Assembly: GCA_039801085.1 (NCBI GenBank)
Contig: JBDRTY010000002.1
Location: 319,339-383,338 of the forward strand
From: a candidate division WOR-3 bacterium
GTDB taxonomy: Bacteria; Hydrothermota; Tepidihabitantia; Tepidihabitantales; Tepidihabitantaceae
Length of the DNA stretch: 64,000 bases
Direction of reading: 5' to 3'
The notes under the pieces were generated by a model that was not told the DNA's origin, searched no databases, and saw only the letters and a program-made list of their open reading frames with translations. Every line of letters begins with the position of its first letter. Position 1 is the first letter of the stretch. This document shows positions 5,334-46,516 of the stretch, in pieces. Made by a program: the position numbers and the translations under genes.

Positions 5334-5356
5334 TAAAGTCCGCGGTGGGATTTAAC

Positions 5357-6808: not shown

Positions 6809-6857
6809 TCCAACATGTTACATAATCATCACCAAAAAATCAAGTTAATTTGTGGGG

Positions 6858-10875: not shown

Positions 10876-10884
10876 CGTCTGATT

Positions 10885-15514: not shown

Positions 15515-16619
15515 CGGTTGTTCCCTCCACCTTTTTTACCACTAGGTCTATAACCCACTCACCGACCGGGTCGTACTTATAGAAACCTGCAACGCCTTGG
15601 AAATCGCTGAAATTCTCAAGTCCGGTCTTAATTTTTTGAGGAACAGTGCCGTACTTGCTGAATATTGGGGTAAGGAGGTTGAATAGTGCATCGAATTCAA
15701 TGACGGAATTCCAATTCGGGAGCGCCCCGAAGCGGGTTTCAAATTTTTTTACTATCGCTAATGTTAATGTATCAGTGACGGATGAAGCGTCAAATGCAGG
15801 GGTAGTGTAGTAAGTACCTTCCAATGCTTCCTTTGCAAGGCTGATGGTAGGTTCGACAGAAAAGTTATAGCTTCCAAGTATGTAGCCTTTGTACTGCAGT
15901 TCCTTTGTTTGCTTGAGCGCAATTCCGTTAGCTTTACCATATCCGTAGATATATATCGCTTCCGGCTTGGCAGCAATTAATCTCCTAATAGACGCCCGGA
16001 AGTCAGTTCCGTCTTTTTCAAATGCTTCGGCTTTAAGAATTTGTCCTCCCAAGCGGTGAAAATGCTGACTGAACATTTTCATTGCTGCTTCACCAAAGGC
16101 ATCGTTAATGTAAAAAATGGCGATTTTTCTTATTCCCATTTTATTAAATGCAAACTCTGCCATTTTTAAAGCCTCATGTTTACTGGTAGGAAAATTTCTG
16201 AAAACCCAGTCACTAAGAGAGGTAATTTCAGGATGGCCGCAGTTGGCGAACAGAACTACCCCTTTCTGCTCCGCTTGATTATAAATCGCCATACTTGGAG
16301 AGCTCATTACTGTAATGATCAAGGGCACACGATCAACCGTTACGAGTTTGTTGAATGCACTTACAGTTAATTTCGGTTCATTCTGATCATTTTCGTAAAT
16401 AAGCTGGAGTTTCTTACCGTTGATTCCGCCTCGTGAATTTATTTCTTCCACCGCCAAGTCAAGGCCAATTTTGTGCTGCTGTGCAATTTCAGCGGCACTC
16501 CCAGTAAGAGGTAAAATTACGCCGATCTTTATTGCTTGGGGTTCTTTCTTGCAATCTATTTGACCTAGTACCGTCAAAACTGCGGTCATAAGTATGCCAA
16601 TTTTTATTCCATTGTGCAA
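15495..16619 (-). CDS. Liv-type ABC transporter substrate-binding protein
   Basis: This 374-residue protein starts at a TTG (16619) with AGGAGG 5 bp upstream. A hydrophobic export signal (residues 5-20) is followed by a cysteine (C23) that could be lipidated, although LGQIDC is a poor lipobox. The rest is a type I periplasmic-binding fold of the leucine/isoleucine/valine family (Peripl_BP_6): IKIGVILPLTGSAAEIAQ near 31-48, GLDLAVEEINSRGGINGKKL near 52-71, and YINDAFGEAA in the middle. It faces the livHMGF-like genes across the divergent promoter region, so it is probably their binding protein. Ligand specificity cannot be read from sequence; members of this family also bind amides, aromatics and nucleobase-like compounds. 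Confidence 0.88.
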   Translation of the reverse strand: MHNGIKIGILMTAVLTVLGQIDCKKEPQAIKIGVILPLTGSAAEIAQQHKIGLDLAVEEINSRGGINGKKLQLIYENDQNEPKLTVSAFNKLVTVDRVPLIITVMSSPSMAIYNQAEQKGVVLFANCGHPEITSLSDWVFRNFPTSKHEALKMAEFAFNKMGIRKIAIFYINDAFGEAAMKMFSQHFHRLGGQILKAEAFEKDGTDFRASIRRLIAAKPEAIYIYGYGKANGIALKQTKELQYKGYILGSYNFSVEPTISLAKEALEGTYYTTPAFDASSVTDTLTLAIVKKFETRFGALPNWNSVIEFDALFNLLTPIFSKYGTVPQKIKTGLENFSDFQGVAGFYKYDPVGEWVIDLVVKKVEGTTGVQVYP

Positions 16620-16663
16620 GCTTTCCTCCTTTTATTTGTTTGGCTTCATACAATTCTATAGTA

Positions 16664-16679
16664 AGCAAATTGCGTTCCT
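16664..16679 (-). promoter_or_regulatory. Candidate sigma-54 promoter for the minus-strand arm
   Basis: On the minus strand the sequence reads AGGAACGCAATTTGCT. It has the GG and GC pairs at the -24/-12 spacing and matches the consensus TGGCACGNNNNTTGCW except at positions 1 and 4. A start of transcription about 12 bp further would leave a short leader with the AGGAGG site of the substrate-binding protein gene. An NtrC-type activator encoded in the same arm supports it. Confidence 0.55.
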
Positions 16680-16725
16680 TGTCAACAACCACACAAAAGC
16701 TTTCTGAAAAGCCAGCCGATGGGAT

Positions 16726-16758
16726 TTGATCGTCACAATCAAGTGATAACAGAATCAC
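16726..16758. promoter_or_regulatory. Two inverted repeats between divergent sigma-54 promoters (candidate activator sites)
   Basis: TTGAT-N7-ATCAA (16726-16742) and GTGAT-N6-ATCAC (16743-16758) lie directly next to each other. They sit 47-62 bp upstream of the minus promoter and 41-57 bp upstream of the plus promoter. Dyads of this size in such a place are typical of enhancer sites for NtrC-family proteins. That the activator at 5357-6808 binds here is an inference. Confidence 0.4.
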
Positions 16759-16798
16759 CTTGCGTTCATTTCTGAATCATCTTTTCCTTTGCACACGC

Positions 16799-16814
16799 TG
16801 GCACATAATTTGCA
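16799..16814 (+). promoter_or_regulatory. Sigma-54 promoter for the liv/tubulin arm
   Basis: TGGCACATAATTTGCA fits the sigma-54 consensus TGGCAC-N5-TTGCW with the exact GG/GC spacing; only the G after TGGCAC is replaced by A. Transcription would start near 16825, giving a leader of about 17 nt before the ATG of the first permease gene. It stands at the head of the nine-gene plus-strand arm. Confidence 0.75.
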
Positions 16815-16841
16815 GATGTAGTTTAAAATAGGTTGAATGTG

Positions 16842-17717
16842 ATGTTACTGCAGTTTATTGCCAATGGTTTGGTTGAGGGAGTTGTTTTAGGAATGTTTGC
16901 TTTGGGGTTTAGTATAATTTATAATTCAAGCAGAGTATTTAATTTCGCACAAGGCGGGATATTTACTGTCGCTGGGTACATAGTGTACCTCTCTTGGAAA
17001 ATTTTAAATCTGCCAATAGGCGTTGGAATAATGCTGGCGATCATAGGTGCGATTGGACTAGGGATGCTGCTTGAGAGATTGATTTTCTATCCTTTATATA
17101 GGCAACAGTCTTCACCTGCCATTGTGATTCTAAGCAGTTTAGGTAGTTATTTGGTCATTGTTAACTTGATTGTTCTTATATTAGGTAATGAGACTAGGGT
17201 TCTGAGGTCTGGGGTAGAGGAAACGTTGAAATTAGGGGGGGGCATATTAACCAAAATTCAGGTTTTTGGGGGGTGCACTGCACTGATTCTAAGTGTTCTT
17301 ACAATTATTTTGCTAAGACATACTAGGTTTGGTATAACGCTGAGGGCACTGGCAGATAACTCATCATTGATTGCAGTGCTTGGACTTGGTATTCAGCGGT
17401 TACGACTGCTGAGTTTCGCTTGGGGGTCGATGTTAGGGGGAGTGGCAGGTGTGATTGCAGCATTTGATGTCGGCATCGATCCGCACGTTGGCGGGTCAGC
17501 AGTGTTAATCGGCGCCGTGGCGACAATCCTCGGTGGTATCCGAGTCATTGAAGCAGCATTCTTTGGGGGGGTGATTATCGGAATTACTAAAAACTTGGCT
17601 GCTGGGCATATTTCGGCCCGTTGGGAGTCGGCAGTTACATTTTTTATACTGCTGATTGTGCTTTTGCTTCGGCCTCAAGGAATACTGGGAAAACGCGGTA
17701 GACTGGAGGAAATTTGA
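16842..17717 (+). CDS. livH: LivH-like ABC transporter permease
   Basis: I take the ATG at 16842, 9 bp after an AGG, over the in-frame TTG at 16833. The protein is 291 residues with about eight membrane helices. It has the branched-chain amino-acid permease pattern, for example the N-terminal GLVEGVVLGMFALGFSIIY and FNFAQGGIFTVAGYIVY segments and a cytoplasmic loop with RALADNSSLIAVLGLGIQ that contacts the ATPase. It forms the inner-membrane channel together with LivM. The stop overlaps the TTG start of the next gene. A G8 tract lies at 17235-17242. The family is certain; the gene symbol reflects family only, since the transported compound is not known. Confidence 0.88.
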   Translation: MLLQFIANGLVEGVVLGMFALGFSIIYNSSRVFNFAQGGIFTVAGYIVYLSWKILNLPIGVGIMLAIIGAIGLGMLLERLIFYPLYRQQSSPAIVILSSLGSYLVIVNLIVLILGNETRVLRSGVEETLKLGGGILTKIQVFGGCTALILSVLTIILLRHTRFGITLRALADNSSLIAVLGLGIQRLRLLSFAWGSMLGGVAGVIAAFDVGIDPHVGGSAVLIGAVATILGGIRVIEAAFFGGVIIGITKNLAAGHISARWESAVTFFILLIVLLLRPQGILGKRGRLEEI

Positions 17718-18583
17718 GTTACTTACTCCACATACTGATTATGTGTTGTATTTATCTTATTCTCGCGCAGTCACTTAATTTGCTTGTGGGGTATACTGGT
17801 TTGCTTTCAATGGCCCATGCAGCATTTTACGGGCTCGGTGCTTATATATCAGCACTGCTAATGGTCAGGGCGGGCTGGAACTTTTTCGCTACTATTCCTG
17901 TGGCAATGGTCGGAGCAATGATACTGGCAGTGATTGTGGCATTACCGTCACTTCGGTTGCGGGGAGATTATTTTTTACTTGCGACGTTGGCTTTTCAGAG
18001 TATCATCTTTTACCTTCTCTATAACTGGATATCATTTACGCGGGGTCCATATGGGATTGCGGGTATCCCCAAGCCAGAATTTCTCGGTTTTAAGATCACT
18101 AATGTACCGGAATATTTTCTGATGAGTGCACTGATCACGGGTTTAATTTTTCTGATAGTAGGTACACTTTGTTCGTCTCCTTTTGGTCGGGTGCTTAAAT
18201 CAATCAGGGAGGATGAGTTTGTCGTTGAGGCGCTGGGTAAGAACACAAGAGTTTTTAAAATTCAGGCGTTTATGACTGCTGGTGGTCTGGCAGCGGTTGC
18301 CGGTTCGCTATATGCTGCCTATGTGGCTTATATTGATCCTACCAGCTTTACTTTTGATGAATCGGTATTCATCCTTTCGATAATAATAATTGGTGGGACC
18401 GGTAATCTGAAAGGTCCAGTAGTTGGGACGCTACTGATGCTCTTTTTGCCTGAACTTCTGAGATTTTTAAGGGTTTCTGATCCCGTAGCGGCAAATGTCC
18501 GGCAAATTATTTACGGAGCTCTCCTTGTCGTGCTGATGCGAATTCGACCTCAGGGGATTTTAGGTGACTACCAGTTCGACTAA
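17714..18583 (+). CDS. livM: LivM-like ABC transporter permease
   Basis: This 289-residue membrane protein starts at a TTG overlapping the LivH stop, with GGAGGA upstream at 17705-17710. It carries the LivM pattern: SLNLLVGYTGLLSMAHAAFYGLGAY near residues 20-44, SLRLRGDYFLLATLAFQ near 80-96, and the ATPase-contact loop SIREDEFVVEALGKNT near 163-178, followed by the GGTGNLKGPVVGT segment. It pairs with LivH to form the permease. A frame overlap with the LivG gene (GTG start at 18564) shows coupled translation. Confidence 0.88.
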   Translation: MSYLLHILIMCCIYLILAQSLNLLVGYTGLLSMAHAAFYGLGAYISALLMVRAGWNFFATIPVAMVGAMILAVIVALPSLRLRGDYFLLATLAFQSIIFYLLYNWISFTRGPYGIAGIPKPEFLGFKITNVPEYFLMSALITGLIFLIVGTLCSSPFGRVLKSIREDEFVVEALGKNTRVFKIQAFMTAGGLAAVAGSLYAAYVAYIDPTSFTFDESVFILSIIIIGGTGNLKGPVVGTLLMLFLPELLRFLRVSDPVAANVRQIIYGALLVVLMRIRPQGILGDYQFD

Positions 18584-19337
18584 TGAAATGATACGGACCG
18601 AAGGGCTGGTAAAGAGTTTTGGCGGGCTGAGAGTGATAGATGATGTTACCGTTACGTTTTACCGTGGCAAGATTACCGGTTTAATCGGACCCAATGGAGC
18701 GGGCAAAACTACCCTTTTTAATATTCTCAACGGTTTCATAAAACCGGATGAGGGGGTAATTTATCTAGGGGATATCAGAATTGACTGTTTAGCCCCGTTT
18801 CAGGTTGCCCAGTTGGGAGTGGGTAGGATGTTTCAGGATACGAGAATTTTTGCCCAAATGAGTGTGTTGGACAATGTGTTGGTAGCGATAAAGGGTCAGA
18901 GTGGTGAGACCCCTTTTAATTTATTTGCTAAATATCCCAAAATCCAGCAGGAAGAAAAGGAAAATCGGCAAACTGCGATTCGCTGGTTGGAATTTGTGGG
19001 GTTAAGTGATAAAATGCAAATCCGTGCCGAAAATCTTTCCTACGGGCAACAGAAACTCTTGGCGCTTGCCCGATTGCTTGCCGGGAATAGTAGCGTATTG
19101 CTACTGGATGAACCAACTGCTGGGGTGGATCCAGGGTTTATTCCTGTGCTTCTTGATTTTTTAAAAAGACTGAAGGAAGATGGTAAAACTATAATTCTAA
19201 TAGAGCATAATATGACCGCAGTGCTTGCGGCGTGTGACTGGGTATATTTCATGGATGAAGGGAAAATTACAGCGTTCGGTTTGCCAGAAGAAGTGCTATC
19301 TGATCCTACAGTCAGAAATGCCTATCTGGGTTTATGA
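18564..19337 (+). CDS. livG: LivG-like ABC transporter ATPase
   Basis: This 257-residue ABC ATPase has Walker A GPNGAGKTT (42-50), the LivG-type FQDTRIF Q-loop region (about 92-98), the signature LSYGQQKLLALARLL (about 160-174), and Walker B LLLDEPTAGVDP followed by the H-loop IEHNM. The GTG start at 18564 is favoured by an AGGGGA stretch upstream, and no ribosome site precedes the later in-frame ATG at 18588. It overlaps LivM by 20 bp and LivF by 4 bp. It energises the Liv-type transporter. Confidence 0.9.
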   Translation: MTTSSTNEMIRTEGLVKSFGGLRVIDDVTVTFYRGKITGLIGPNGAGKTTLFNILNGFIKPDEGVIYLGDIRIDCLAPFQVAQLGVGRMFQDTRIFAQMSVLDNVLVAIKGQSGETPFNLFAKYPKIQQEEKENRQTAIRWLEFVGLSDKMQIRAENLSYGQQKLLALARLLAGNSSVLLLDEPTAGVDPGFIPVLLDFLKRLKEDGKTIILIEHNMTAVLAACDWVYFMDEGKITAFGLPEEVLSDPTVRNAYLGL

Positions 19338-20053
19338 GTCAAGCATCTGATTTGATAAAGATCGATGATATTCATGCTGGTTATGGCAGAAAAAAAATTC
19401 TATTTGGAGTTAGTATGGTGATTCACGAGGGGGAGGTGGCGGTGCTTATCGGTCCTAACGGTTCGGGAAAATCGACACTTCTTAAGGTTATTGGTGGACT
19501 TCTTCAACCATGGCAGGGAAGGGTTTACTTCAAGGGTCGCGACATCACTCAGATTTCAACGGATGCAAGAGTCAGACTTGGTTTAGGTTATTTTCTTCAA
19601 GGAGGTGAAATTTTTAGGAGTTTGAGGGTGCAGGAAAATTTGGAGGTCGGGGGTATGGGTTTGAGTCGGATCGATTTCAATCGAGCGCGCAAAGAAATTT
19701 TTGATTTGTTCCCGCAGTTAAGAGCATATCAAAACCGGCGTGCCGGGGAACTTTCTGGAGGAGAAAAACAGGCACTCGCTTTAGCCATGGTTCTGCTGCG
19801 TCGGCCGCAACTGCTTTTACTTGACGAACCATCTGCTGGACTGGCGCCGGCGCTGGTGGAGGCAATGATTAAAAAGATTGAAAATGTTAGAAAGATTTTG
19901 GGCACGACGATTTTGTTAGTAGAGCAGAATGTCCGCGAGGCACTGAGAATCGCCACTACCGTTTTTATAATTAAAAAGGGGGTAATTCTAAGCCAAGAAG
20001 AACCTGATGTAGTGCTGGAAAAGGGAAAATTGGTTGAGGTTTTTTTTCGTTGA
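19334..20053 (+). CDS. livF: LivF-like ABC transporter ATPase
   Basis: This 239-residue ABC ATPase has Walker A GPNGSGKST (40-48), signature LSGGEKQALALAMVLL (about 138-153), Walker B LLLLDEPSAGLAP and H-loop VEQNV. It is the second ATPase of a Liv-type importer. The ATG overlaps the LivG stop (ATGA). In place of the usual YVPQGR segment of LivF it reads YFLQGGEIF, a small deviation at the Q-loop. The next gene, a receiver, starts 30 bp later. Confidence 0.9.
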   Translation: MSQASDLIKIDDIHAGYGRKKILFGVSMVIHEGEVAVLIGPNGSGKSTLLKVIGGLLQPWQGRVYFKGRDITQISTDARVRLGLGYFLQGGEIFRSLRVQENLEVGGMGLSRIDFNRARKEIFDLFPQLRAYQNRRAGELSGGEKQALALAMVLLRRPQLLLLDEPSAGLAPALVEAMIKKIENVRKILGTTILLVEQNVREALRIATTVFIIKKGVILSQEEPDVVLEKGKLVEVFFR

Positions 20054-20083
20054 CAACAGGAGAAATTTATTATCTAATAAATT

Positions 20084-20458
20084 ATGGAAAGAGTATTAAT
20101 CGTCGAAGACTCCATTGAGTATGCTGAGGCATTGAAAAACATTCTTAAATTTGATTATGATGTGGTTATTGCTACCAATTTAGAAGAAGCCAAGGAGAAG
20201 GCAAACGGAAATTTCGGCGTTTTTCTAGTGGATATCCGATTAAATGAGTCAGATCCAAACAACGCTGATGGTTTGTTGTTTCTCAAATGGGCTAAACACA
20301 AGTTTTGCGAAGTTCCAGTGATAATGATGAGCGCCTACCGCGAGTTTGAGGAACAGAAAGATTGTATTGCGCAAATGGGTGCAGCATTATTTCTTAAAAA
20401 ACCTATAAGCATAAAGGATTTGAAAGAAGGTCTAAGATCAGTATTACGCAAAACTTGA
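20084..20458 (+). CDS. Single-domain response regulator (lone receiver)
   Basis: This 124-residue protein is a receiver domain only: acidic E8-D9, phosphoacceptor D50 in FLVDIRL, a serine in MMSAY and a lysine in LFLKKPIS. It has no output domain, like CheY or Spo0F, so it may act by protein contact or as a phosphorelay step. After D50 it carries the insertion NESDPNNADGLLFLK, which closely parallels DDTKPSNKDGIELLK in the NtrC protein of the opposite arm; the two receivers probably share a kinase. It lies between the transporter and vWA/tubulin genes and may link them to the signal. Confidence 0.9.
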   Translation: MERVLIVEDSIEYAEALKNILKFDYDVVIATNLEEAKEKANGNFGVFLVDIRLNESDPNNADGLLFLKWAKHKFCEVPVIMMSAYREFEEQKDCIAQMGAALFLKKPISIKDLKEGLRSVLRKT

Positions 20459-20496
20459 CAGAGTAAGAATGTTTTATTAATTTTTTTTAGATTTTT

Positions 20497-21633
20497 ATGT
20501 TTTGGACAAACCGAGCCATAAAATACTTATTTCTGTATTTACTTTTGGTTCCGGGAGATGTCGCAGCTCAGAAAACTCTAATTTTTGTAATCGATGTTTC
20601 TGGTAGTATGCGCTACGATAACCTTTACCAGCGGGTAACGGGTTCGTTAGTTGATTTTATTCGTCGCGAGTTTAAAGAGGGGGATAATATTGTTTTGTGT
20701 TCGTTCGGGAATGATTTCTATATCAACAAAGAGCTTAATGAAGTGAAGAACTTGTGGTCGAGTAATATCTTGCAAGAAATTGAGCGCTTAGCTTTTAACG
20801 ATCAATGGACTTATATGACGCTTGCCTTTGCTCGAGTAGCAGAGATCGCCGAACGCTATCGACTACGCTCACCAAGCAACCCGATCTACATTTATCTTTT
20901 CACTGATGGTAAAAATGAGCCACCGCCCAAGGTTAAGAATCCACTGAGTTTTAAGCAGATTCTTGAGTGGTATTTTAGCAGCTATCAAGCCGAAAATACC
21001 TACCTTTATGTTGTTACTTTAGGGACTCAACCTCAGGATAGCCTTACAATGTTTGTGGAATCTACGGGAGGAGAGATTGTTTCAGTGCCGCGAGAAATTA
21101 AAATGAAGAACCTTTCTTCAGAGATTCCATCGGCCCAGACCCCCCCCCCCAAGAAAGGCGAACAAGATGTTGCTCGGCAGAAATCGAGGGTAGAATCCCA
21201 TTCGCAAAAGAGAGATGGAAGATACTGGCTGATTTTAGTGATTGGTGGAGGGATTTTGCTGCTGGCACTGGTTTTTGTGATCGTTAAGTATAAGTTTAGA
21301 TTGGCTGAATTTCCGCCAGATGCTCAGCTGTTATGGCTTGATGATGTTGGACATACGATCGATCGGTTTAATTTGAGACAGCATCAGAAAGTTGGTAAAA
21401 ATAAATTGCTGATTTCAGGTGATATCGATATTCCAGGCATCGCAATCGGTGAACTGGAGTTATCAGTGCACAGAGACGGGAATGTCTTTTTGAACGTCAA
21501 ACAGCCCGATAAATCAGTTAAAATAATGGGGGAAGTCGGGGGAGAAATTAAGGCTGGAGAAAGATATCTTTTAACTTCAAATATCGAATTTGAATACAAC
21601 AGCGTTAAACTGAAATACGAGAAAGGAGATTAA
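20497..21633 (+). CDS. Membrane-anchored von Willebrand factor A (vWA) protein
   Basis: The 378-residue protein has a signal or anchor sequence (residues 8-24) followed at once by a vWA domain with the MIDAS motif DVSGS (33-37), a later threonine in the QWTYMT region, and FTDGKNEP (about residue 136). A proline-rich linker near residues 214-220 is coded by a C11 tract (21140-21150). One membrane helix follows (about 243-265), then a C-terminal beta-rich domain of about 110 residues, perhaps FHA-like but not certain. By topology the vWA domain is outside the inner membrane and the C-terminal domain inside. vWA proteins commonly act as metal-dependent adhesion partners in large assemblies; here the partner is likely the tubulin-like GTPase encoded 2 bp downstream. 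Confidence 0.82.
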   Translation: MFWTNRAIKYLFLYLLLVPGDVAAQKTLIFVIDVSGSMRYDNLYQRVTGSLVDFIRREFKEGDNIVLCSFGNDFYINKELNEVKNLWSSNILQEIERLAFNDQWTYMTLAFARVAEIAERYRLRSPSNPIYIYLFTDGKNEPPPKVKNPLSFKQILEWYFSSYQAENTYLYVVTLGTQPQDSLTMFVESTGGEIVSVPREIKMKNLSSEIPSAQTPPPKKGEQDVARQKSRVESHSQKRDGRYWLILVIGGGILLLALVFVIVKYKFRLAEFPPDAQLLWLDDVGHTIDRFNLRQHQKVGKNKLLISGDIDIPGIAIGELELSVHRDGNVFLNVKQPDKSVKIMGEVGGEIKAGERYLLTSNIEFEYNSVKLKYEKGD

Positions 21634-21635
21634 AT

Positions 21636-24600
21636 ATGGCTTCAATTCTAATTGGTTTGGGCGGTTTTGGGACTGGGGTTGTGCGCAGGGTTAAGCGTTT
21701 GTTTGAAGAAAATCCCGCTTATCACGGATTGATCAATCAAACCGTCTTTTTTTCCTCCATTGATATTGACCCTGATTTTGAGTCGGAGATTGCTTCTATC
21801 GATCAGATTTATTGGGAAGGATTCCGTGTCAGTAGGCCCAAACATGAAATTGATAAGCTGTTTAAAGAAGATGCAAATTTTAAGTATTGGTGGATTCCTG
21901 GTTTTACTTTAGAATCAGAGATAAAGGGAACAAGGGGGGCAGGTCAAATTAGAATTGCTGGCCGACTGGCTTTTTATTTGCATTTTCCCCGAATTAAATC
22001 AGCAATTAAAGAACGTATCGATCAGGCCAATGAACTGCGAGCCAAGTTACAGAAAGATCAGGGTATGGCAGCAGTAAATACTCCCAATGTTGTATTTTTG
22101 GTAAGTTCGCTTGCCGGGGGGACAGGTTCCGGCATACTGATCGACACAGCGATGTTAGTTAGGAGTTTGGTTGATGAGTCATACAAGATTTACGGCGTGT
22201 TCTGCGATGGGTCGGTAGTTGAAAAATTTGCGGGAGGTAATACCAAGTTATACGGGTTTGCTACATTGACCGAAATTGAACGATGGATGGAAAAGGGTGA
22301 TACTTTTGAATTTCATTATGGTAATATAAACGCAACGGTAAAAGGGCAAAATAGATTATTTGATATTGTGTTTCTTATACAGTCAGACAATTTACAGGGT
22401 CGGACATTTTACGTGCGAGGGGGTGGTGACCGAGAAATCAGAAACAATTATCAAGAATTGCTTGCTTCTTTTTTGGGGACGCTCCTTACATCTATTGACT
22501 TCGATGAGACGCTAGCCGCAAATTCTTGGAACAGATTTGATGCTTTGCCTCTCACTTCCAATGGGCGAAGCCGTAATTATTCCACCTTCGGTATTAGTCA
22601 TATATCGTTTCCAGTGCACAAGGTAACAAATTATTGCTATTCCCGTTTGATTAGCGAAGTATTGAAATTAGGATTTGATTTTTCCAATCCTGACTTGCAA
22701 AAATTTGAAAGAGATAATTCAATTTGCGAACGTGATGGAAATCAGTTGACAAATTATTTGCGCGATAAATGCCGGTCGGCGAGGTCTTATAAGGCAAAGA
22801 GAGACCGGGAGTTAATACGTTTTAGTGCTCCCCGGATTAAAAATACAGCGAGCTTTGTGAATTTGTTAGCACCGCACGGAATAGAAAAACTCATACTTGA
22901 TTATTCAGATTTGATAGAGGGTTATAAAAAAGAGTTATCTCAGGAATTGGAAGATCTGAAGAAAGTAATAACGAAAAACTTTGAGCGCACAATTTTTGAA
23001 TTGGTTGCGAGTCTTAGGTTTGACGAACTGAATAAGATCTTAGAGGAATTCATTGGAGTGATGCAAGCTAATATAGAACACACTAACCGGTCAAAACCAT
23101 TATGGGATAAAGCTGACGCACTTCGCGAACAATTAAGTGCTCGATACGATGCAGTGCTAAAGTGTAAAAGGGGTTTTATGGGTATTGGTGATGAGTTTCC
23201 CTCTCGAAAAGGAGAATTTGTTGCTACCCTGAAACAATGGACTGATGCCGAAATACAATCAGCTGAACGTAAAATAATGGAAAAGTTCTACAAAGAAATA
23301 ATTGAAACTACGAAACACATCAAATGGGTAATTCAATATCTTGGCGGTATTCTTAACGACTATGTTGCTCAGTGTGCTCGACAAACTGGAGCGTATGTGC
23401 AGCACGACTGGATTGTTGATCCTGAACGTTTTAGTTCTGGTGAATATCTTTTAAATTTAGAACTTTCGACATCGAAGTCTGATGTAGATGAATATATTTA
23501 CCCCGATATTAAAAAGATCTTTAAAGACGAGGGGGTTAGACAAGAAATCATCAATGGTTGTGAAAAAAAATACGATGGCATCGGGACTATTATAAGAGAA
23601 TTGTATGATAAGTATATTCAAGATCCCAATAAAATGGCAAAGTCGCTTAATAATAGCAGGAATGAATATGCCGCAAAGTTAGAGCAGACTTTTACCGGGG
23701 CAATTAAATCAAAAGTTTATGACTTGGTAAAAAGAATTCGGGTAGATGATGCGATGACGTGGTTTTTGCAGCGGACTTACAATGAGGTAAAGAACGTAAT
23801 GACTAATGGAAGCGGTGCTGAACAAGAGGGGGTTAAAAATCGCCTCAGCATGGTTTTTGGTACTGCTACGGCAAATCTGCTTATGAACAAAGATTATAAT
23901 GAGGATAGGTGGATGCGAGAGGCAGCACGGGGAATTCTAAAGCAGATGTCAGAATTGACGCAGCCTTTTATAAAAATTGAGGAGAACGACATAATAAGAG
24001 ATAATCAAGGGGAAGATCAGGTAGAGCACATCAAGATTCAGGTGGTATTTGCCCCAGAAAATTTTAAGTTCGCTAAAGAAATACCAGTTTCCTCTTGCAT
24101 TTATACAAAAATGACAGATAGAATTACTTTTTACACCCAACTGTCTTTCTTTCCTCTGTATCGAGTATTGTCATTTAAAGAAATAGCCGAGGCGTATAAT
24201 AAACATGTGGAAACTATTTTATCTGCCGTGGATAAAGGGCGTAAAACTGGAATTCCAGCGCATGCAGATTACAGGTTTTATACGATATGGCGCGATAATA
24301 TTTTGCACCCGGTGGCTAAAGAAGAGGAACGAATGAAGGACGTTATTTTATTGATACTTCTTGGAATGGCAATGGGATTTATCAAACGCGATAAACAAAT
24401 ATTCCGTATCTATTCCCCACGAGGAGAGGAGATTGGAAATCCTATCCGGGGGGTTGAGGCACTTTATAATCAGCTACTTAACGATCAAATTACTCGAAGG
24501 CAGCTTGGCACTTTGGTATGCGAGAAATTCATGAATGAATATTATGGTGATGATAAGCTTAAAGCGGTACAGAATCTCTTCAAAATAGCACAGCAGGAAT

Positions 24601-24755
24601 TGAAAAAGATCAAAACAGATAAAAACAGTAGCAGTTATAAGATCCTAAGCTTGCTGATTAAATTATCCTCAATAATGGATAAGAGCACTGTGATTCCAAA
24701 CTCAAATAAAGAATTAGAGGAATTGGCTAAAAGGTTGCAACAGTTAAGGCAATAA
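21636..24755 (+). CDS. Tubulin/FtsZ-superfamily GTPase-like protein (Tubulin_2 type)
   Basis: At 1039 residues it is far longer than FtsZ. The N-terminal part reads as a tubulin-like nucleotide-binding fold: the T1 loop GLGGFGTG (7-14), RGAGQIRIAGR (100-110) as a possible T3 region, and the signature T4 loop SLAGGTGSG (158-166). A hydrophobic strand FDIVFLIQSDN follows near 242-252. The remainder (about 350-1039) is largely helical and charged, with long segments that may be coiled coil, and no membrane helix. I recall that Makarova and Koonin (2010) described FtsZ-like families that occur with vWA proteins and were proposed to act in membrane remodelling; this gene fits that class in general. 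The gene lies 2 bp after the vWA gene and before a membrane protein gene. Polymerisation is inferred, not shown. Confidence 0.8.
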   Translation: MASILIGLGGFGTGVVRRVKRLFEENPAYHGLINQTVFFSSIDIDPDFESEIASIDQIYWEGFRVSRPKHEIDKLFKEDANFKYWWIPGFTLESEIKGTRGAGQIRIAGRLAFYLHFPRIKSAIKERIDQANELRAKLQKDQGMAAVNTPNVVFLVSSLAGGTGSGILIDTAMLVRSLVDESYKIYGVFCDGSVVEKFAGGNTKLYGFATLTEIERWMEKGDTFEFHYGNINATVKGQNRLFDIVFLIQSDNLQGRTFYVRGGGDREIRNNYQELLASFLGTLLTSIDFDETLAANSWNRFDALPLTSNGRSRNYSTFGISHISFPVHKVTNYCYSRLISEVLKLGFDFSNPDLQKFERDNSICERDGNQLTNYLRDKCRSARSYKAKRDRELIRFSAPRIKNTASFVNLLAPHGIEKLILDYSDLIEGYKKELSQELEDLKKVITKNFERTIFELVASLRFDELNKILEEFIGVMQANIEHTNRSKPLWDKADALREQLSARYDAVLKCKRGFMGIGDEFPSRKGEFVATLKQWTDAEIQSAERKIMEKFYKEIIETTKHIKWVIQYLGGILNDYVAQCARQTGAYVQHDWIVDPERFSSGEYLLNLELSTSKSDVDEYIYPDIKKIFKDEGVRQEIINGCEKKYDGIGTIIRELYDKYIQDPNKMAKSLNNSRNEYAAKLEQTFTGAIKSKVYDLVKRIRVDDAMTWFLQRTYNEVKNVMTNGSGAEQEGVKNRLSMVFGTATANLLMNKDYNEDRWMREAARGILKQMSELTQPFIKIEENDIIRDNQGEDQVEHIKIQVVFAPENFKFAKEIPVSSCIYTKMTDRITFYTQLSFFPLYRVLSFKEIAEAYNKHVETILSAVDKGRKTGIPAHADYRFYTIWRDNILHPVAKEEERMKDVILLILLGMAMGFIKRDKQIFRIYSPRGEEIGNPIRGVEALYNQLLNDQITRRQLGTLVCEKFMNEYYGDDKLKAVQNLFKIAQQELKKIKTDKNSSSYKILSLLIKLSSIMDKSTVIPNSNKELEELAKRLQQLRQ

Positions 24756-24771
24756 AAGCACTGTTCACTTA

Positions 24772-26799
24772 ATGTCTTTATCAGCCGCCACTTGTTTACT
24801 CTATTTAGTTAAAAGTGGTGATGGCATGTGGGATTTATTCAAATCTTTTGCTAATGATTTTTATAACCAGGTTAAACCGGAATCGCCAAGTATTAAAGTT
24901 AAAATTGGGGCGGTTGCTGACATCGAATCCACAATGAATGAAATCAACAAAGAAATCACACCTAGGGAGGTTATTTTTTTCCCCTTGATCGATGTTCAAT
25001 CGGCTTCCCAGGAGATTTATCACAGCCTCAACATACTCGGTGATAAGTACCCTAATATCATAATTTACACTTATCCGATTTTATTTTTGCCGTCCAATGC
25101 AGTTGTTGATTTTCTAAGGGAATTCCCAGATAAATTCTCTAATTACTCTAATTTTGAGTTTTGCTTTTTTTTCTCTGATAAAGATACGAGCAACCGCGCT
25201 GTTAAACCGGTTGATTGGATTGTGTTACTTAATCATTTTATGGCGCTGGTTCATGCAATAATATCAAATGGCGAATTGCGGTACTGGTTAGAAAAATTTA
25301 GCAACAGAGGTAAAGATGAAAAAGGCATTGCTAGCTTTGGGGCAACTTTGTTTCAGCTTCCGATTCGAAGGTTGATCGACGATAAATTAAGCACTAAATT
25401 TAAGGAATTCAGCGAAAATCACCTTAAAAAAATTAATAATAGGTTTGAAGTTAATCCTGAGGAACTGGTAAAAGAAGTTGTTGAAAAGGGTGTTGATCAA
25501 ATATTTTCCCGTTATTCGAATCCTCCGATTGATAGTCCCTTTACCCATATGCATGATGTTACTGACTATCCCTGTCTGCTGAAAACTAACTGCGAAGTGG
25601 ATAAGTCCCGAATTAAAGAAGAATCTCAAAGGATAACCGCCGAAGTTTTGAATACTGTTTACAACTCTCTTTATGATCATGTTAAAAAACATACTGTTGA
25701 AATTAATGAAGGGCTGAAAGAGATTAGAAAAACATCGGTACAAAAACTTCAAGAAGCGATTCCGGGATTTTTAAGAGGGGGCGGTACATTGATCGCCTTA
25801 GAAGAATGGTTGGAAAAAAGGGAAAAGGAAGCAAACGTTATTAATTCTAAAATGGATTACTTTCCTGAAGAGCAGAGATACATTTTTATTCCAGCACTTA
25901 ATAAAGTAGCCGAAATTTTAAAAAAGTTGTATTATTGGCAATCAAAGTTTCGATATATGGTTATCTTTTTTTTAGTTGGCTATGTTATTTTTTTATTGAC
26001 TGTGATTGCGTTATTTTCATTGGGGGGGGGAAACTTCCGGAACTTTATGCGATCAATTTTAGTGGGGGGAGGGGTCTTTTTTTTAATATTAGTTGTTCGT
26101 TATTTGAAATTGAACGCGATAAAAAATAAGGGGGCTACAGTTTTGAAAGAACTAAAAGATCAATATGACAGTTTTATAAAGAATACGACACATGATATTA
26201 AAGAGTGGTTCAAGAGATGGTTAGTAAAGCATTTGTCTACTAAACTGATAATTAGTTTTGAAAATGTTCTTGACGAAATAAGAGAGATATGCTTTATTTG
26301 GCGCCGGACTTTACAAAACTTTGAGTTCTGTAAAAATTCTGATACGCCGTCCCAGTTTGTTCAGGAAATAAATTCCCACGGGAATTTATTAGATGATTTG
26401 ATTGACAAGGAAGTTCAAAAAAAGGAAGTTTTTCAAAATCTATCTGTGATATTTGATCATTTCTTGGAGAGTGTTTCTTATCATAATCTGTCTAAAAATA
26501 TACAAACCACCTTAATCCAATTAAGAGAAGAAATTTTTCAAATAATCGAACAAGAAATTCCGCCTCCCTTGATAGGGTTGGGCGCAAATAAATTAAATGA
26601 TTACATTAGAGTAACCGATAATAATATTGTGACGGGTTGTTCGTCCTTAATTAAACCTGAAACACCCAAGTTGTATTTTGTTGTTAAACCCCAGAGTCTC
26701 ACTTTGGAATTTAGCGTTGAAAAAACCTTTAATTGGAACCATAAAGAAGCTCTGTTAATAACCGTAATATACAAGCTAATTCCAACTAAATATGATTGA
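24772..26799 (+). CDS. Two-TM, coiled-coil-rich membrane protein of unknown function
   Basis: The protein is 675 residues. Residues 1-390 are soluble and rich in Lys, Glu and Asn with probable coiled coils. Two membrane helices lie at about 395-450 (VIFFLVGYVIFLLTVIALF and ILVGGGVFFLILVV). The C-terminal 220 residues are again soluble and helical. Both large domains would thus be on the same side, probably the cytoplasm, as no signal peptide is seen. A G9 tract (26022-26030) falls in the loop between the helices. No family is recognised. Position right after the tubulin-like gene suggests a membrane tether for that protein. No good ribosome site precedes the ATG; a start at a later methionine (residue 19) is possible. 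It overlaps the next gene by 8 bp. Confidence 0.72.
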   Translation: MSLSAATCLLYLVKSGDGMWDLFKSFANDFYNQVKPESPSIKVKIGAVADIESTMNEINKEITPREVIFFPLIDVQSASQEIYHSLNILGDKYPNIIIYTYPILFLPSNAVVDFLREFPDKFSNYSNFEFCFFFSDKDTSNRAVKPVDWIVLLNHFMALVHAIISNGELRYWLEKFSNRGKDEKGIASFGATLFQLPIRRLIDDKLSTKFKEFSENHLKKINNRFEVNPEELVKEVVEKGVDQIFSRYSNPPIDSPFTHMHDVTDYPCLLKTNCEVDKSRIKEESQRITAEVLNTVYNSLYDHVKKHTVEINEGLKEIRKTSVQKLQEAIPGFLRGGGTLIALEEWLEKREKEANVINSKMDYFPEEQRYIFIPALNKVAEILKKLYYWQSKFRYMVIFFLVGYVIFLLTVIALFSLGGGNFRNFMRSILVGGGVFFLILVVRYLKLNAIKNKGATVLKELKDQYDSFIKNTTHDIKEWFKRWLVKHLSTKLIISFENVLDEIREICFIWRRTLQNFEFCKNSDTPSQFVQEINSHGNLLDDLIDKEVQKKEVFQNLSVIFDHFLESVSYHNLSKNIQTTLIQLREEIFQIIEQEIPPPLIGLGANKLNDYIRVTDNNIVTGCSSLIKPETPKLYFVVKPQSLTLEFSVEKTFNWNHKEALLITVIYKLIPTKYD

Positions 26800-29593
26800 C
26801 ATTAAGGCAATTATTGAAAAGCCTGAAAATCTAAGGTATTATAAAGGTCAGGTTTATGAGGTTGATGAGGTAGGGATAGTTGAACCCAAATACTACGATA
26901 TAGAGAAGATAGGTATTCCATATAAAAATATCCTGAAGGTTTTATTGAGCAATTTGCAACTTTCCCATTTATACCAACACCAAGGGTTATTCATTAAGGA
27001 GATAGCTGATGGAAAGGATGCTTATTTATGTTTAGCACCAGGAAGTGGTAGTTCAATGGCGGTGGACTTAGCGGTAGTTGCGACAATACTTACTAAACAT
27101 CGGACTGCGTTGTACCTCCGCCCGTCAACTTATGATTTGCGGTCGCGGCTGGCAGTAGTTAATGATCGCATAAAACAAATGAGGTGGGATTGGTTGGTGA
27201 AAGCCGAAAAGGCAGACTGTATTGAGGAATTCTGTTCGGCACTCGGGAGGGAGCCGGATATAATCATAACAGCACCGGAAGTTTTTAAGGAGTATTTTTT
27301 AACTAAATTCTCGGTTGAGGAGGGATCCACTTGGATGGATGCGTTACTGCATGTTGTGATTGAGGAAATCACAATGTTTCACCCGGAGGAGTTATTTCAT
27401 CTCAGCAATCTTATTTCTTCCTTAATAATTGAGAGAAATAACTCAATTCAATTTTTACTCACAAGTGCACCAGTTGGGTCACCAGAAAAATTTGCCCGTA
27501 ATTTAACCCACCGGAACTGCTCGGTTATAACAAGTAGCTATAGCGGCAACAATAGATTCAAAATTTTATATTGGATTCCCCAGATTGTAGCCAAGGTTGA
27601 TGACGACACTGGAGAAATTCAAGTTTTTCGGGAAAATTTTTTCGAAGAATTAAAAGGTTGCTTCAAAATTTTTTGTCGTTCAGAAGATAACATTCTGGTT
27701 TGGAATTTAATTCAAAGTTTTAGTTCCGCAGATTACCGTTTACTTAAAGAAGATTTGTTGCGTTCGGTGCAGTTAGAAATCCCCAAGTTGGAAATAACAA
27801 TATGTGGCGATATTTCCGAAATACCTCGTGACAAATTTAAAAAGTTTAATCGAGTATTTGTTTTAGGAACGGCACCAATCTACAAAAATATCAAGCAGAT
27901 ACTCAGTAATTTAATTACCGAAAATGGCTTGGCAATAATAATTGCCAACGAAGATCCATTATCGTTTTTCTTTGTACGCAGGTTGGATATGGTTGATAAG
28001 CTTCGTTTACCAGACATTATAATTCCTCAAAATAAAAGTGTAACGGAGTTTTATTTTTTTAGAACTCTTGCTAGTAAAAGAATAAATTCTTTAGGTTATG
28101 AACAATTGATTTCTGTTTGGGGTAAAGAACTAACAGAAGAGATTCTCAGCCAACTTGTACAGGAAAAGTTAATTGAAAAAGGTGACGGTAGGGTTTACGT
28201 ATTAGACCGAGATAAAATTTATGACAAGCAGAAAGATATTCCATGGGGCATCATGGATAAAAACTTTTATGAGCTTTCAACGAGTAGCCAAGAAATTTAC
28301 TCAATAAGAAAGTTTGTAACAGAATCACTTTTCCCATATATTGTCTACCCTGAAGCAGTTATTTATAACGGGCTGGAAAAATACCAAATATCTTCCAGTT
28401 TTGACGGCAGTTTTGACGGTGATAAATGTAAGCTTAATTACGCAACAGAGCATACCCCGGTGTTGACTGTCCCGATAATTAATCACTTATTTTCAAGCAA
28501 GCACACCGAACCAATTGCTTATAAAGAAATTAAAGGATTAGGAAGATTGGAATTATTACCCGAACAAACGATTGAAATTCAATTCTGCGGGTTTAAATAT
28601 TTTTTAGATTTTAAGTTTCAGAATACGGGGGAGGTAAAGGTTAAACCAATTAGTCGTATAAGAAAAACATCGCTGATTAAATTTAACACAGATAGCTCCG
28701 CAGGCATTGCTCAGATTTGGAATATCTTTCTTCCCTATTTTTTCCACAATTTTGAACGGCTGATTGCTGTTTTCTCTGACGAATCCGCTGTTTATATTAT
28801 TCCTCTGGTCGACAGTGGTAATGAAGTGTTGAAGGAGATTTATGAGGGTATGGTAGAATTACTTAATTTACTTTATGAGTACGGGTATGAATTGCTAATT
28901 TCTTGCCCTTGTTCTGATGGTTGTCCACTATGTATAGAATACAAAAAAACAAATGTAACGCTCAAAGGGAAAAAACACGATATCTTGCTAACAATAGGGC
29001 AGGCTTTGGGCAAAGAATCAGAAACCAAGAAATTCCTTATCTATAAATCTGAGGGGCTTGATGCTGATTCAGCCCAAAAACAATACGAGGCAGAACAAAA
29101 AAGAATCATCGGACTTTTTCGCAACAAATTAGGTCTGGAAATTCAAAAGCCAGCGAGAATCACGGTTGATAACTTAGATAAAAAACTATTAGGTTTTTGT
29201 TCTTCCGAAGGTGGAGTAAAGGTGATTCCTAAGATTCCTCAAGCATTGGCAATTCAAGTCATTGCTCACGAATATGCTCATAACTGGGAATTTGAACAGA
29301 CCAACAGCAATGTTTTGAAAGAAAAAATAATTAGTGAAGGGTTTGCTGAATGGGTTGCATTTAAAATTTTGGAGTTTTATGGTTTGTTGGATTATATTGG
29401 AAAGATCAAACTACGGGACTATGACGAATATGGTAAAGGGTTTAATTTATGTAAAAGAATCGAAGATGAAATAGCTGGTTTTCTAGGGGTGATCGAGTTT
29501 GTTAAAACAGGTATAGTTAGAAATCCATTAAATAATGAGGAATACGATTTAGCCCGATTAATGGAGGAAGGCTGGGTATATTATAACAAATAA
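26792..29593 (+). CDS. Degenerate MrfA/Hrq1-type helicase fused to HExxH metallopeptidase
   Basis: This is a 933-residue protein. The first ~700 residues follow the layout of superfamily-2 helicases of the MrfA/Hrq1 (DUF1998) group: a Q-motif-like YQHQ (61-64), and a Walker A position that reads APGSGSSMA (82-90) in place of APTGSGKT. The DExH position reads EEIT (191-194), and a cysteine cluster CPCSDGCPLC near 704-713 corresponds to the zinc site of MrfA. Loss of the catalytic Lys and Asp suggests no ATP-driven helicase activity. The last ~130 residues contain HEYAH (about 825-829) and a downstream EGFAEW glutamate about 20 residues later, the pattern of a gluzincin-type zinc metallopeptidase. 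I infer a nucleic-acid- or nucleotide-sensing scaffold that controls a protease. It ends the plus-strand arm. Confidence 0.75.
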   Translation: MIDIKAIIEKPENLRYYKGQVYEVDEVGIVEPKYYDIEKIGIPYKNILKVLLSNLQLSHLYQHQGLFIKEIADGKDAYLCLAPGSGSSMAVDLAVVATILTKHRTALYLRPSTYDLRSRLAVVNDRIKQMRWDWLVKAEKADCIEEFCSALGREPDIIITAPEVFKEYFLTKFSVEEGSTWMDALLHVVIEEITMFHPEELFHLSNLISSLIIERNNSIQFLLTSAPVGSPEKFARNLTHRNCSVITSSYSGNNRFKILYWIPQIVAKVDDDTGEIQVFRENFFEELKGCFKIFCRSEDNILVWNLIQSFSSADYRLLKEDLLRSVQLEIPKLEITICGDISEIPRDKFKKFNRVFVLGTAPIYKNIKQILSNLITENGLAIIIANEDPLSFFFVRRLDMVDKLRLPDIIIPQNKSVTEFYFFRTLASKRINSLGYEQLISVWGKELTEEILSQLVQEKLIEKGDGRVYVLDRDKIYDKQKDIPWGIMDKNFYELSTSSQEIYSIRKFVTESLFPYIVYPEAVIYNGLEKYQISSSFDGSFDGDKCKLNYATEHTPVLTVPIINHLFSSKHTEPIAYKEIKGLGRLELLPEQTIEIQFCGFKYFLDFKFQNTGEVKVKPISRIRKTSLIKFNTDSSAGIAQIWNIFLPYFFHNFERLIAVFSDESAVYIIPLVDSGNEVLKEIYEGMVELLNLLYEYGYELLISCPCSDGCPLCIEYKKTNVTLKGKKHDILLTIGQALGKESETKKFLIYKSEGLDADSAQKQYEAEQKRIIGLFRNKLGLEIQKPARITVDNLDKKLLGFCSSEGGVKVIPKIPQALAIQVIAHEYAHNWEFEQTNSNVLKEKIISEGFAEWVAFKILEFYGLLDYIGKIKLRDYDEYGKGFNLCKRIEDEIAGFLGVIEFVKTGIVRNPLNNEEYDLARLMEEGWVYYNK

Positions 29594-29626
29594 ATGACCA
29601 ATATATACCGAAGAATTGATTTTGGG

Positions 29627-30634
29627 TTATGTTCTAACCGCATGCCCTAATGCCCCGACCAGGTCAATCGCCTTGACCGGGCAGACAAGGACACACTGGC
29701 CACAGCCGATGCACTTTTCGGGGATGACCCGGTGCTGTTTTCCGGGGTCACCTTCAATCGCCTTGAACTGACAAACTTTGACACATTCACCGCAGCCGGT
29801 ACAGCGGGGATTGATAGATGCTTTGGGTCGGCCTGGTGCCCGGTCGATAAATGATTTGGTCGGACATTTGTGAACGCAGATGCCGCAGTCAATGCACTTT
29901 TGAAAGTCCATGACTGGCAGGTTGTTTTCCATTCTCAGGGCGCCAACCGGGCAGACCCGCGTACACAGTCCGCAGGCGATGCAGCCGACCGAGCAAACCT
30001 CTTTAACCGCCCGCCCGCGGTCGTGAGAAACACAGGCGAGGTAGACCAGTTTCGAACGGGGAATCAGGCTCAGCGTTCCCTTCGGGCATTCGGCTACGCA
30101 CTTGCCACAGCCGATGCATTTTCTTTCGTCGATAATTGGCAGCCGGTTTTCGCCCATTCTGATCGCCTTGACCGGGCAGACAGTGACGCAGTGTCCAAAG
30201 CCCACACAGCCGTAGATGCAGGCTTTGGGTCCGCCGAGCAGAAGAGCTGCCTGACGGCAGTTTTCGGCCCCCTTATATTGGAAGCGTTGGGGTGCCTGAT
30301 CCTTGCCTCCGCGGCAGATGAGAACCGCCACTTTCGGTTCAGCTGCGGTTACCTCCTGCCCCATGATTTCGCCGATTTTCTTGGCTACTTCAGGTCCGCC
30401 GACTGAGCAGGCGTTCAACGGTGCCTTGCCCGCGGCAATCGCAGCGGCATAACCGTCGCAACCGGGATAGCCGCAGGCACCGCAGTTGGCGCCAGGCAGG
30501 ACCGAGCGGATGCGGGCTTCCCGTTCATCAACCTTGACCGCCAGTTTGATGGAGGCGAGCAGCAGAATCACGCCCAGAATCAGTCCCAGTCCTCCCAGGG
30601 TGATGAGCGATTTGATAACCAGTGACCAGTCCAT
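29627..30634 (-). CDS. rnfB: Rnf complex subunit B (polyferredoxin)
   Basis: The 335-residue protein begins with one membrane helix (residues 8-28). Next comes the RnfB-type Fe4S domain with cysteines in NCGACGYPGCDGYAAAI (about 50-66), and then several CxxCxxCxxxCP ferredoxin motifs, more than the two of the shortest RnfB proteins (for example CVGFGHCVTVCP, CIGCGKCVAECP, CIACGLCTRVCP, CIDCGICVHKCP, CTGCGECVKVCQ, CIGCGQCVLVCP). It is the likely entry point for electrons from ferredoxin. It is the last gene of the operon, 2 bp after rnfA, and its stop lies 33 bp from the end of the AT-rich locus. Confidence 0.93.
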   Translation of the reverse strand: MDWSLVIKSLITLGGLGLILGVILLLASIKLAVKVDEREARIRSVLPGANCGACGYPGCDGYAAAIAAGKAPLNACSVGGPEVAKKIGEIMGQEVTAAEPKVAVLICRGGKDQAPQRFQYKGAENCRQAALLLGGPKACIYGCVGFGHCVTVCPVKAIRMGENRLPIIDERKCIGCGKCVAECPKGTLSLIPRSKLVYLACVSHDRGRAVKEVCSVGCIACGLCTRVCPVGALRMENNLPVMDFQKCIDCGICVHKCPTKSFIDRAPGRPKASINPRCTGCGECVKVCQFKAIEGDPGKQHRVIPEKCIGCGQCVLVCPVKAIDLVGALGHAVRT

Positions 30635-46421: not shown

Positions 46422-46516
46422 TGGCGGAGGCGGGTAGGAATCGAACCTACCGGTCAGCTTAACGCCGACCATACGGATTTGAAGTCCGCCAGGCACACCA
46501 GCACCCATCCGCCTCC
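46422..46516 (-). tRNA. selC: Selenocysteine tRNA (anticodon UCA)
   Basis: On the minus strand the sequence folds as a 95-nt tRNA-Sec: an 8-bp acceptor stem (GGAGGCGG with CCGCCTCC), discriminator G and an encoded CCA end. The anticodon arm GCGGACTTCAAATCCGT has UCA in the loop. A long extra arm (GGTCGGCG...GCTGACC) is present, with the T-loop GGTTCGATTCC. The length equals that of E. coli selC. The organism therefore should read some UGA codons as selenocysteine. The 3' end lies 28 bp before the porin-like gene, so the two may share a transcript. Confidence 0.95.

Follow-up and report, generated by a model that had tools for sequence, protein, structure and literature searches.

What does a protein do that joins a helicase with altered motor motifs to the signature of a zinc peptidase? 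This question is raised by P0001, encoded by the last gene of an operon in a candidate division WOR-3 bacterium of the phylum Hydrothermota (contig JBDRTY010000002.1, assembly GCA_039801085.1). The stretch analysed, referred to here as the window, comprises 64,000 nucleotides of this contig (positions 319,339 to 383,338, forward strand). In the reading that we favour, with a probability of roughly 40%, P0001 is a latent DA1-like peptidase effector in a membrane-associated complex of an FtsZ-like 1 (FtsZl1) protein and a vWA protein, and its likeliest use is a response to conflict.

P0001 was compared with helicase families and structures. Pfam DEAD matched above its family cut-off, and the single match up to E 1 in a phmmer search of the Protein Data Bank (PDB) was YprA/MrfA (6znp, E 5.4e-10). 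This match rests on residues 47-269; a second piece, over a Cys cluster described below, is weak alone (i-Evalue 1.7). A profile built from 8 of the phylum's ordinary YprA helicases aligned with P0001 across 495 columns (99.2%, E 6e-20); as regards the OB-CON canopy fold, this alignment extends no further than residue 535. TIGR03817 (E 3.7e-13) fell far under its cut-off, and MZB (PF09369, E 0.0063) likewise matched only below threshold. Controls included 2000 shuffles of P0001 and the other window open reading frames (ORFs) of at least 100 amino acids (aa), in neither of which the YprA profile or the DA1-like profile described below listed anything up to E 10. The RecA1 similarity to MrfA is significant by both the PDB match and the profile, and these data argue that P0001 descends from YprA/MrfA helicases. 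A previous description of the gene made from the letters of the DNA (the sequence-only reading), which had called it a dead helicase of this type fused to a zinc metallopeptidase, is to this extent borne out.

The motor motifs were then read from an alignment of P0001 with 16 homologues of the phylum, 13 of which are full-length ordinary YprA helicases. An intact Walker A, DExH site and motif VI, as expected of a working YprA/MrfA helicase, were not found in this alignment. Where all 16 homologues have SGK[T/S] (15 by pattern, the 16th, L005, read from the alignment), P0001 has GSGSSM; VIEEIT replaces a DExH present in 16 of 16, with loss of the Asp of the DE pair; the motif III position reads SAP; and KQILSNLITEN stands where every homologue has GRAGR, the Arg residues of motif VI being gone. 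The absence of the Walker A Lys and the EEIT at the DExH site had both been claimed in the sequence-only reading and hold up against the homologues. Since several separate motifs are altered within an open frame, a sequencing slip is unlikely. Because the motifs for ATP binding, hydrolysis and coupling to movement have all changed, the YprA-derived part would, in the reading we favour, no longer be a working motor. The MrfA-like Cys cluster, in contrast to these motifs, is kept, as had been noted: CPCSDGCPLC lies in register with the cluster of 13 homologues, the other 3 of the 16 being too short to cover it.

Downstream of the cluster, HEYAH (residues 826-830) is followed by Glu849 at HExxH-x18-E spacing. 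This is the complete HExxH...E pattern of a zinc peptidase, in agreement with what had been proposed, and metal binding is predicted on that basis. In Pfam, residues 737-933 matched DUF2268 (23.5 bits, against a cut-off of 23.6) and Peptidase_M1, in each case under the threshold. When residues 271-933 were searched in 390 genomes, 23 genomes, including the bacterium's own, matched at E <= 0.01 (best 3 candidates per genome among the matches listed). The six strongest other genomes match the peptidase domain (E 1e-10 to 2.2e-5) with ORFs of 234-461 aa in which CxxC or LIM repeats precede HE[YLI][AT]H...EG[FW]A[EQ][WY]. Five of these six relatives match Pfam DA1-like (E 1.5e-5 to 3e-4, one at the cut-off and four below) and the sixth gives no match. 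A profile from the six aligned with P0001 across ~140 columns (hhalign 99.0%, E 4e-18), a value that is inflated because its members were picked for matching P0001. Against the PDB, the same profile weakly matched LIM proteins (best 1.6e-4) and, around the active site, M1 aminopeptidases (best 0.0043). P0001 itself has no LIM match in Pfam and carries the helicase-type four-Cys cluster upstream of its peptidase instead. By these comparisons the nearest relatives of the peptidase are small zinc-finger/LIM proteins of bacteria, which show weak matches to the Pfam family of plant DA1. Plant DA1 is described as a latent HExxH peptidase that is activated by ubiquitylation and requires a LIM-like region for activity (PMC5322733). 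DA1-type peptidases share with P0001 the EGFAEW-like Glu after HExxH and an upstream zinc-binding module; they differ in having LIM repeats at the place of the helicase Cys cluster.

Table 1. Features of P0001, its operon and the surrounding island (coordinates in the window).
Feature	Position	Strand	Basis or remark
P0001, degenerate YprA/MrfA-like helicase + DA1-like zinc peptidase (predicted)	26792..29593	+	933 aa
RecA1-like domain, residues 1-270	26792..27601	+	Pfam DEAD at 62-228, E 3.9e-8; MrfA 6znp match at 47-269
Former Walker A (GSGSSM, Lys replaced), residues 84-89	27041..27058	+	alignment with YprA homologues
Former DExH site VIEEIT, residues 189-194	27356..27373	+	alignment with YprA homologues
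Former motif III SAP, residues 225-227	27464..27472	+	alignment with YprA homologues
Motif VI position, KQILSNLITEN, residues 368-378	27893..27925	+	alignment; homologues have GRAGR
MZB-type cluster CPCSDGCPLC, residues 705-714	28904..28933	+	alignment; MZB below cut-off
DA1-like peptidase domain (predicted), residues 746-906	29027..29509	+	hhalign 99.0%, E 4e-18; hmmsearch
HEYAH, residues 826-830	29267..29281	+	sequence motif
Likely third zinc ligand Glu849, in EGFAEW	29336..29338	+	sequence motif
Stand-alone receiver domain (REC) protein	20084..20458	+	Pfam Response_reg 1.6e-14
vWA protein, one transmembrane (TM) segment (residues 241-270)	20497..21633	+	Pfam VWA 1.2e-8; hydropathy
FtsZ-like 1 / Tubulin_2 protein, 1039 aa	21636..24755	+	Pfam PF13809 1.1e-41
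675-aa protein, two adjacent TM segments (393-422, 424-447)	24772..26799	+	hydropathy; overlaps P0001 by 8 bases
Liv (branched-chain-amino-acid)-type ABC transporter genes, two permeases + two ATPases	16833..20053	+	directly upstream of operon
Genomic island, ~24.3 kb	5337..29629		empty site in sister species G001, G002

A second fusion was found in a genome of the same phylum and another family (G123; ORF L139 3888-7742, minus strand, 1284 aa), where it surfaced as two weak matches in one ORF in the search with residues 271-933. It begins with hydrophobic segments, judged by eye, and continues with a YprA-like part (YprA profile E 7.4e-26), CPCATGCPIC, HEYFH and EGFAQW. A one-target phmmer search with P0001 gave 3.4e-16 in three pieces, over the helicase part, the Cys cluster and EGFAQW. 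Because ~45 additional residues lie between HEYFH and EGFAQW, the third zinc ligand is uncertain in this protein. The fusion has thus been retained in a second, diverged member. That member keeps GSGKS and VVDEL and has lost motif VI, so the word "dead" in the sequence-only reading is certain for the family only at motif VI, while the fusion of such a helicase to a zinc-peptidase pattern stands at the sequence level and in both members. These residues also bear on an alternative in which the altered residues of the helicase part still allow it to bind ATP or nucleic acid, so that it works as a slow switch and not as a dead scaffold. The retained motifs of the second member would suit it, and the Ser-rich loop GSGSS of P0001 might still bind nucleotide. 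In P0001, however, neither the Walker Lys nor the Asp of DE nor any Arg of motif VI remains, and we regard such a switch as highly improbable.

A profile built from both members found matches at E <= 1e-6 in 74 of 390 genomes, of which only G000 and G123 matched beyond the helicase part; no third fusion was found in the 390 genomes (best 2 candidates per genome scored). In a whole-protein search of 147 phylum genomes, 16 others matched and had ordinary YprA-type proteins only; this search missed G123, showing that whole-protein searches can miss diverged members. Close relatives were found neither in genome contigs (queries P0001 and FtsZl1), nor in viral contigs (P0001, the DA1-like alignment and FtsZl1), nor in plasmids (the peptidase part, the 675-aa protein and one DA1-like relative). 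Whole P0001 matched 15 plasmid records, all inside residues 4-304, and no tubulin was annotated in the two of these 15 neighbourhoods that were inspected. Loci L023-L026 and L138 contributed little or nothing to the analysis. Scarcity of this kind in the phylum, the altered motor motifs and weak conservation relative to the second fusion could indicate a captured helicase-peptidase gene that is drifting to loss and has no present function. The gene, however, has 933 open codons across exactly the interval in Table 1, overlaps the preceding gene by 8 bases and resembles its operon neighbours in GC by codon position. The Cys cluster and HExxH-x18-E are retained in P0001, and the diverged second member likewise keeps a Cys cluster and HExxH. 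Of the explanations set out here, decay has the slimmest chance.

The operon that ends with P0001 reads REC - vWA - FtsZl1 (Tubulin_2) - two-TM protein - fusion. The vWA protein has a hydrophobic N-terminus as judged by eye, and the 675-aa protein showed no family above cut-off in family profile scans. A Tubulin_2 gene with an adjacent vWA gene identifies this as an FtsZl1-vWA system, an operon arrangement described by Makarova and Koonin, who proposed that FtsZl1 systems are membrane-remodelling machines (PMC2875224). As in their operons, a ~1000-aa FtsZl1 lies beside a vWA gene together with lineage-specific genes. A helicase-peptidase fusion is absent from the parts of their account compared here, and the frequent partners given there, protein kinase, GTPase and OmpA, were not recognised by Pfam in the five operon genes, nor was a MoxR or TRAFAC GTPase. 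In the second genome, the 761-aa gene preceding the fusion starts almost like the ORF directly after FtsZl1 on another contig. For this reason that genome very probably shares the order vWA - FtsZl1 - TM protein - fusion, as inferred across two paralogous or variant copies whose four genes do not stand together on one contig. Conflict systems combining tubulin, vWA and peptidases are known (PMC7159879). The GTPase/tubulin and MoxR-vWA systems among them share vWA, tubulin and peptidase components and membrane links with the present operon but differ from it in having MoxR or a TRAFAC GTPase; PMC7159879 has 0 mentions of DUF1998, YprA not having been searched for. PADLOC recognised no DISARM-, ARMADA- or Druantia-type partner genes in the operon and gave weak matches only, to BrxHI (1e-5) for P0001, PD-T4-6 (8.9e-4) and SduA (0.0049) for REC, and mad1 (0.014) and BrxD (0.022) for FtsZl1, with no match for the vWA or 675-aa protein.

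The same operon may instead be an envelope or transport machine, in which FtsZl1 and the membrane vWA protein would remodel the membrane or control the Liv-type transporter, with P0001 as a processing peptidase whose helicase part is a mere scaffold. The Liv-type genes directly upstream have homologues, together with one of the REC protein (E 4e-33), in a locus of another genome (G012) that contains FtsZl1 and vWA. The vWA and third proteins have TM segments, which point the same way, as do the hydrophobic start of the second fusion and the membrane-remodelling proposal for FtsZl1 (PMC2875224). Liv-type transporters are not annotated in the stretches from Allomeiothermus or Deinococcus, however; near the tubulins of Thermus and Azospirillum the transporter genes belong to other types, for sugar and iron, and the island that carries the operon also encodes a deaminase domain of a defence class. 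We view this explanation as a serious, if tentative, possibility.

The operon partners also bear on an alternative in which P0001 is a DNA-gated protease for DNA damage. A MrfA-type cleft would bind damaged or single-stranded DNA and the peptidase would remove cross-linked protein, a logic like that of the proteases SPRTN and Wss1. A DNA-binding-type scaffold beside a metallopeptidase pattern would suit this role, and MrfA functions in DNA repair (PMC11194089). TM proteins and a tubulin as partners, the hydrophobic segments at the start of the second fusion and the accessory nature of an island gene make it distinctly unlikely, however.

Other FtsZl1 neighbourhoods were surveyed for comparable genes. 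Plasmids of Thermus oshimai (L083) and Allomeiothermus silvanus (L082) have vWA - tubulin-like - ~680 aa - BrxL, with a transposase before BrxL in the latter (BrxL by Pfam and by annotation, respectively); helicase or exonuclease genes lie near both sets. In G091 the order is vWA - FtsZl1 - 701 aa - transglutaminase-like protein. Of the FtsZl1 proteins found, the one most similar to that of the window (E 6.6e-80) is in G089, where a contig ends in a 111-aa ORF piece with HEIGH...EGWA upstream of the vWA-FtsZl1 pair (L020 17347-17682, minus strand; DA1-like profile E 4.5e-4, no Pfam family). In G012, a dCTP-deaminase-like gene (L021 9090-9554, minus strand; 9.3e-31) is two genes from FtsZl1. 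Across 20 such neighbourhoods this ORF piece of G089 was the one match of the DA1-like profile, and the YprA profile matched one gene (annotated RecQ, Allomeiothermus, more than 5 kb away). With 1 of 20 matched, the idea that FtsZl1 operons generally carry a peptidase was dropped; other peptidase types were looked for among those FtsZl1 neighbours scanned by Pfam. The idea that the third genes form one family was likewise dropped, as comparison of the window's 675-aa protein with those of G091, G123, Thermus/Allomeiothermus and Azospirillum gave no sequence support. The third genes agree in length and, in G091 and G123, also in mid-protein TM segments.

The operon lies in a genomic island. The genes at 4722-5333 and 29627-30634 lie directly side by side in the sister species G001 and G002; blastn places the island ends at about 5333-5337 and 29630-29643, which are 58 bases apart in G001. 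The GC content of the 24.3-kb insert is 39.4%, compared with 54.8% in the rest of the window, and the insert is flanked by a Na+/H+ antiporter-subunit/4Fe-4S gene pair on one side and rnf genes on the other. In the reading we favour it is horizontally acquired. Its left half encodes a sigma-54 regulator, a 1016-aa deaminase-domain protein, unknown genes and the Liv-type transporter. Residues 366-1000 of the 1016-aa protein (6858-9908, minus strand) match positions 208-601 of 605 of PADLOC CARF5-CARF_ADA (1.8e-81), and its PDB matches are adenosine deaminases, with CRISPR-associated ones among the best. About 360 extra residues precede the match; ~200-365 look receiver-like by eye, and Pfam reported no such domain. 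A 525-aa methyltransferase-like protein (13937-15514, minus strand) matches TRM5/TYW2 (4.7e-8) and, partially, PADLOC mad2 (1.8e-13). The proteins at 10885-12984 and 12975-13970 (minus strand) gave no Pfam family at the limits used, and the motif impression of a split histidine kinase at 10885-13970 found no support in the comparison made. The window also contains a selenocysteine tRNA (46422-46516, minus strand).

Several of these results weigh against a latent conflict effector. P0001 exceeds no Pfam peptidase cut-off, and DA1-like (PF12315) is not among its matches listed up to E 10; on the peptidase side of the sequence-only reading, the profile of the DA1-like relatives is positive and Pfam is not. 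The DA1-like profile is weak on the second fusion (3e-4 over the whole protein, 0.011 and 0.091 for single stretches). The loss of ATP-binding residues is not a family trait, as that protein retains the Lys of Walker A as well as the DE pair. The 390 genomes yielded 2 members, too few for selection to be inferred with much power, and the fusion occurs in none of the 20 other FtsZl1 neighbourhoods, several of which end at contig ends. AlphaFold models are unusable (mean pLDDT 38.8 for the C-terminal 197 aa alone and 32.8 at full length with two viral YprA relatives). The Cad1-type match of the 1016-aa protein covers the deaminase part, its CARF part being unmatched. The adjoining transporter, with its homologues beside REC and FtsZl1 in G012, points to transport or envelope work, and the remodelling proposal for FtsZl1 speaks against defence (PMC2875224). 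The "defence-like" label of the sequence-only reading is accordingly divided: these last two points count against it, while an island absent from two sister species, its Cad1-type deaminase domain and BrxL in two Thermaceae plasmids speak for it by context only. The dCTP-deaminase-like gene in the G012 locus and the BrxL, transglutaminase-like protein or HExxH ORF near other vWA-FtsZl1 genes also favour a conflict setting.

Under the latent-effector explanation, P0001 would serve as the effector-type subunit of an FtsZl1-vWA complex that is associated with the membrane and encoded on a horizontally acquired island. Its YprA-derived part would persist as a body stabilised by zinc, keeping the C-terminal DA1-like peptidase latent. 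A signal, whether relayed by the receiver domain, by the membrane vWA protein, by assembly of FtsZl1 or by a ligand (for example nucleic acid) in the former helicase cleft, might shift this body and free the peptidase to cut a protein target, by analogy with the activation of latent plant DA1 by ubiquitylation, most likely in a conflict (defence-like) response. The sequence-only reading had proposed sensing of nucleic acid and firing of a protease, both of them hypothetical. Read in this way, the sequences suggest a nucleic-acid motor turned into part of a protein-cutting machine.

Defence branches of the YprA family comprise DISARM, Dpd, Druantia, ARMADA, BRIGADE and TALON (PMC12458937). They share RecA1 homology and the DUF1998/MZB four-Cys cluster with P0001, and several have C-terminal enzymatic domains; these are active or inactivated nucleases, whereas P0001 has lost its motor and carries a C-terminal peptidase, and the branches' partner genes were not recognised in the window operon. 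The words "tubulin", "protease" and "peptidase" have 0 occurrences each in the main text of that paper, and a literature search of titles and abstract openings turned up no fusion of YprA/DUF1998 with a peptidase, in a tubulin operon or elsewhere. Plant DAR4/CHS3, a TIR-NB-LRR protein with a DA1-family C-terminal region, resembles P0001 as a large sensor-type protein ending in a DA1 region; its sensor part is unrelated, and the likeness is one of analogy only (PMC5322733). It is conceivable, although doubtful, that P0001 represents a new branch of YprA-family immunity that gave up the motor, kept recognition and replaced the nuclease by a DA1-type peptidase, with a membrane-linked bacterial tubulin as the platform for assembly; it would then be the prokaryotic counterpart of an immune receptor that joins a sensor to DA1.

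Three things go beyond the sequence-only reading: the FtsZl1 operon, the island and the relatives that the peptidase has among DA1-like proteins. As a family member with a lost motor and a peptidase, P0001 would show the YprA scaffold, tied to nuclease domains in the defence branches of PMC12458937, reused to control protein cutting. The poorly understood FtsZl1-vWA operons gain a candidate enzymatic output that is testable at the single residues His826 and Glu827. With one diverged member in each of two families of the phylum, a nucleotide-binding loop that was kept can be compared with one that was lost.
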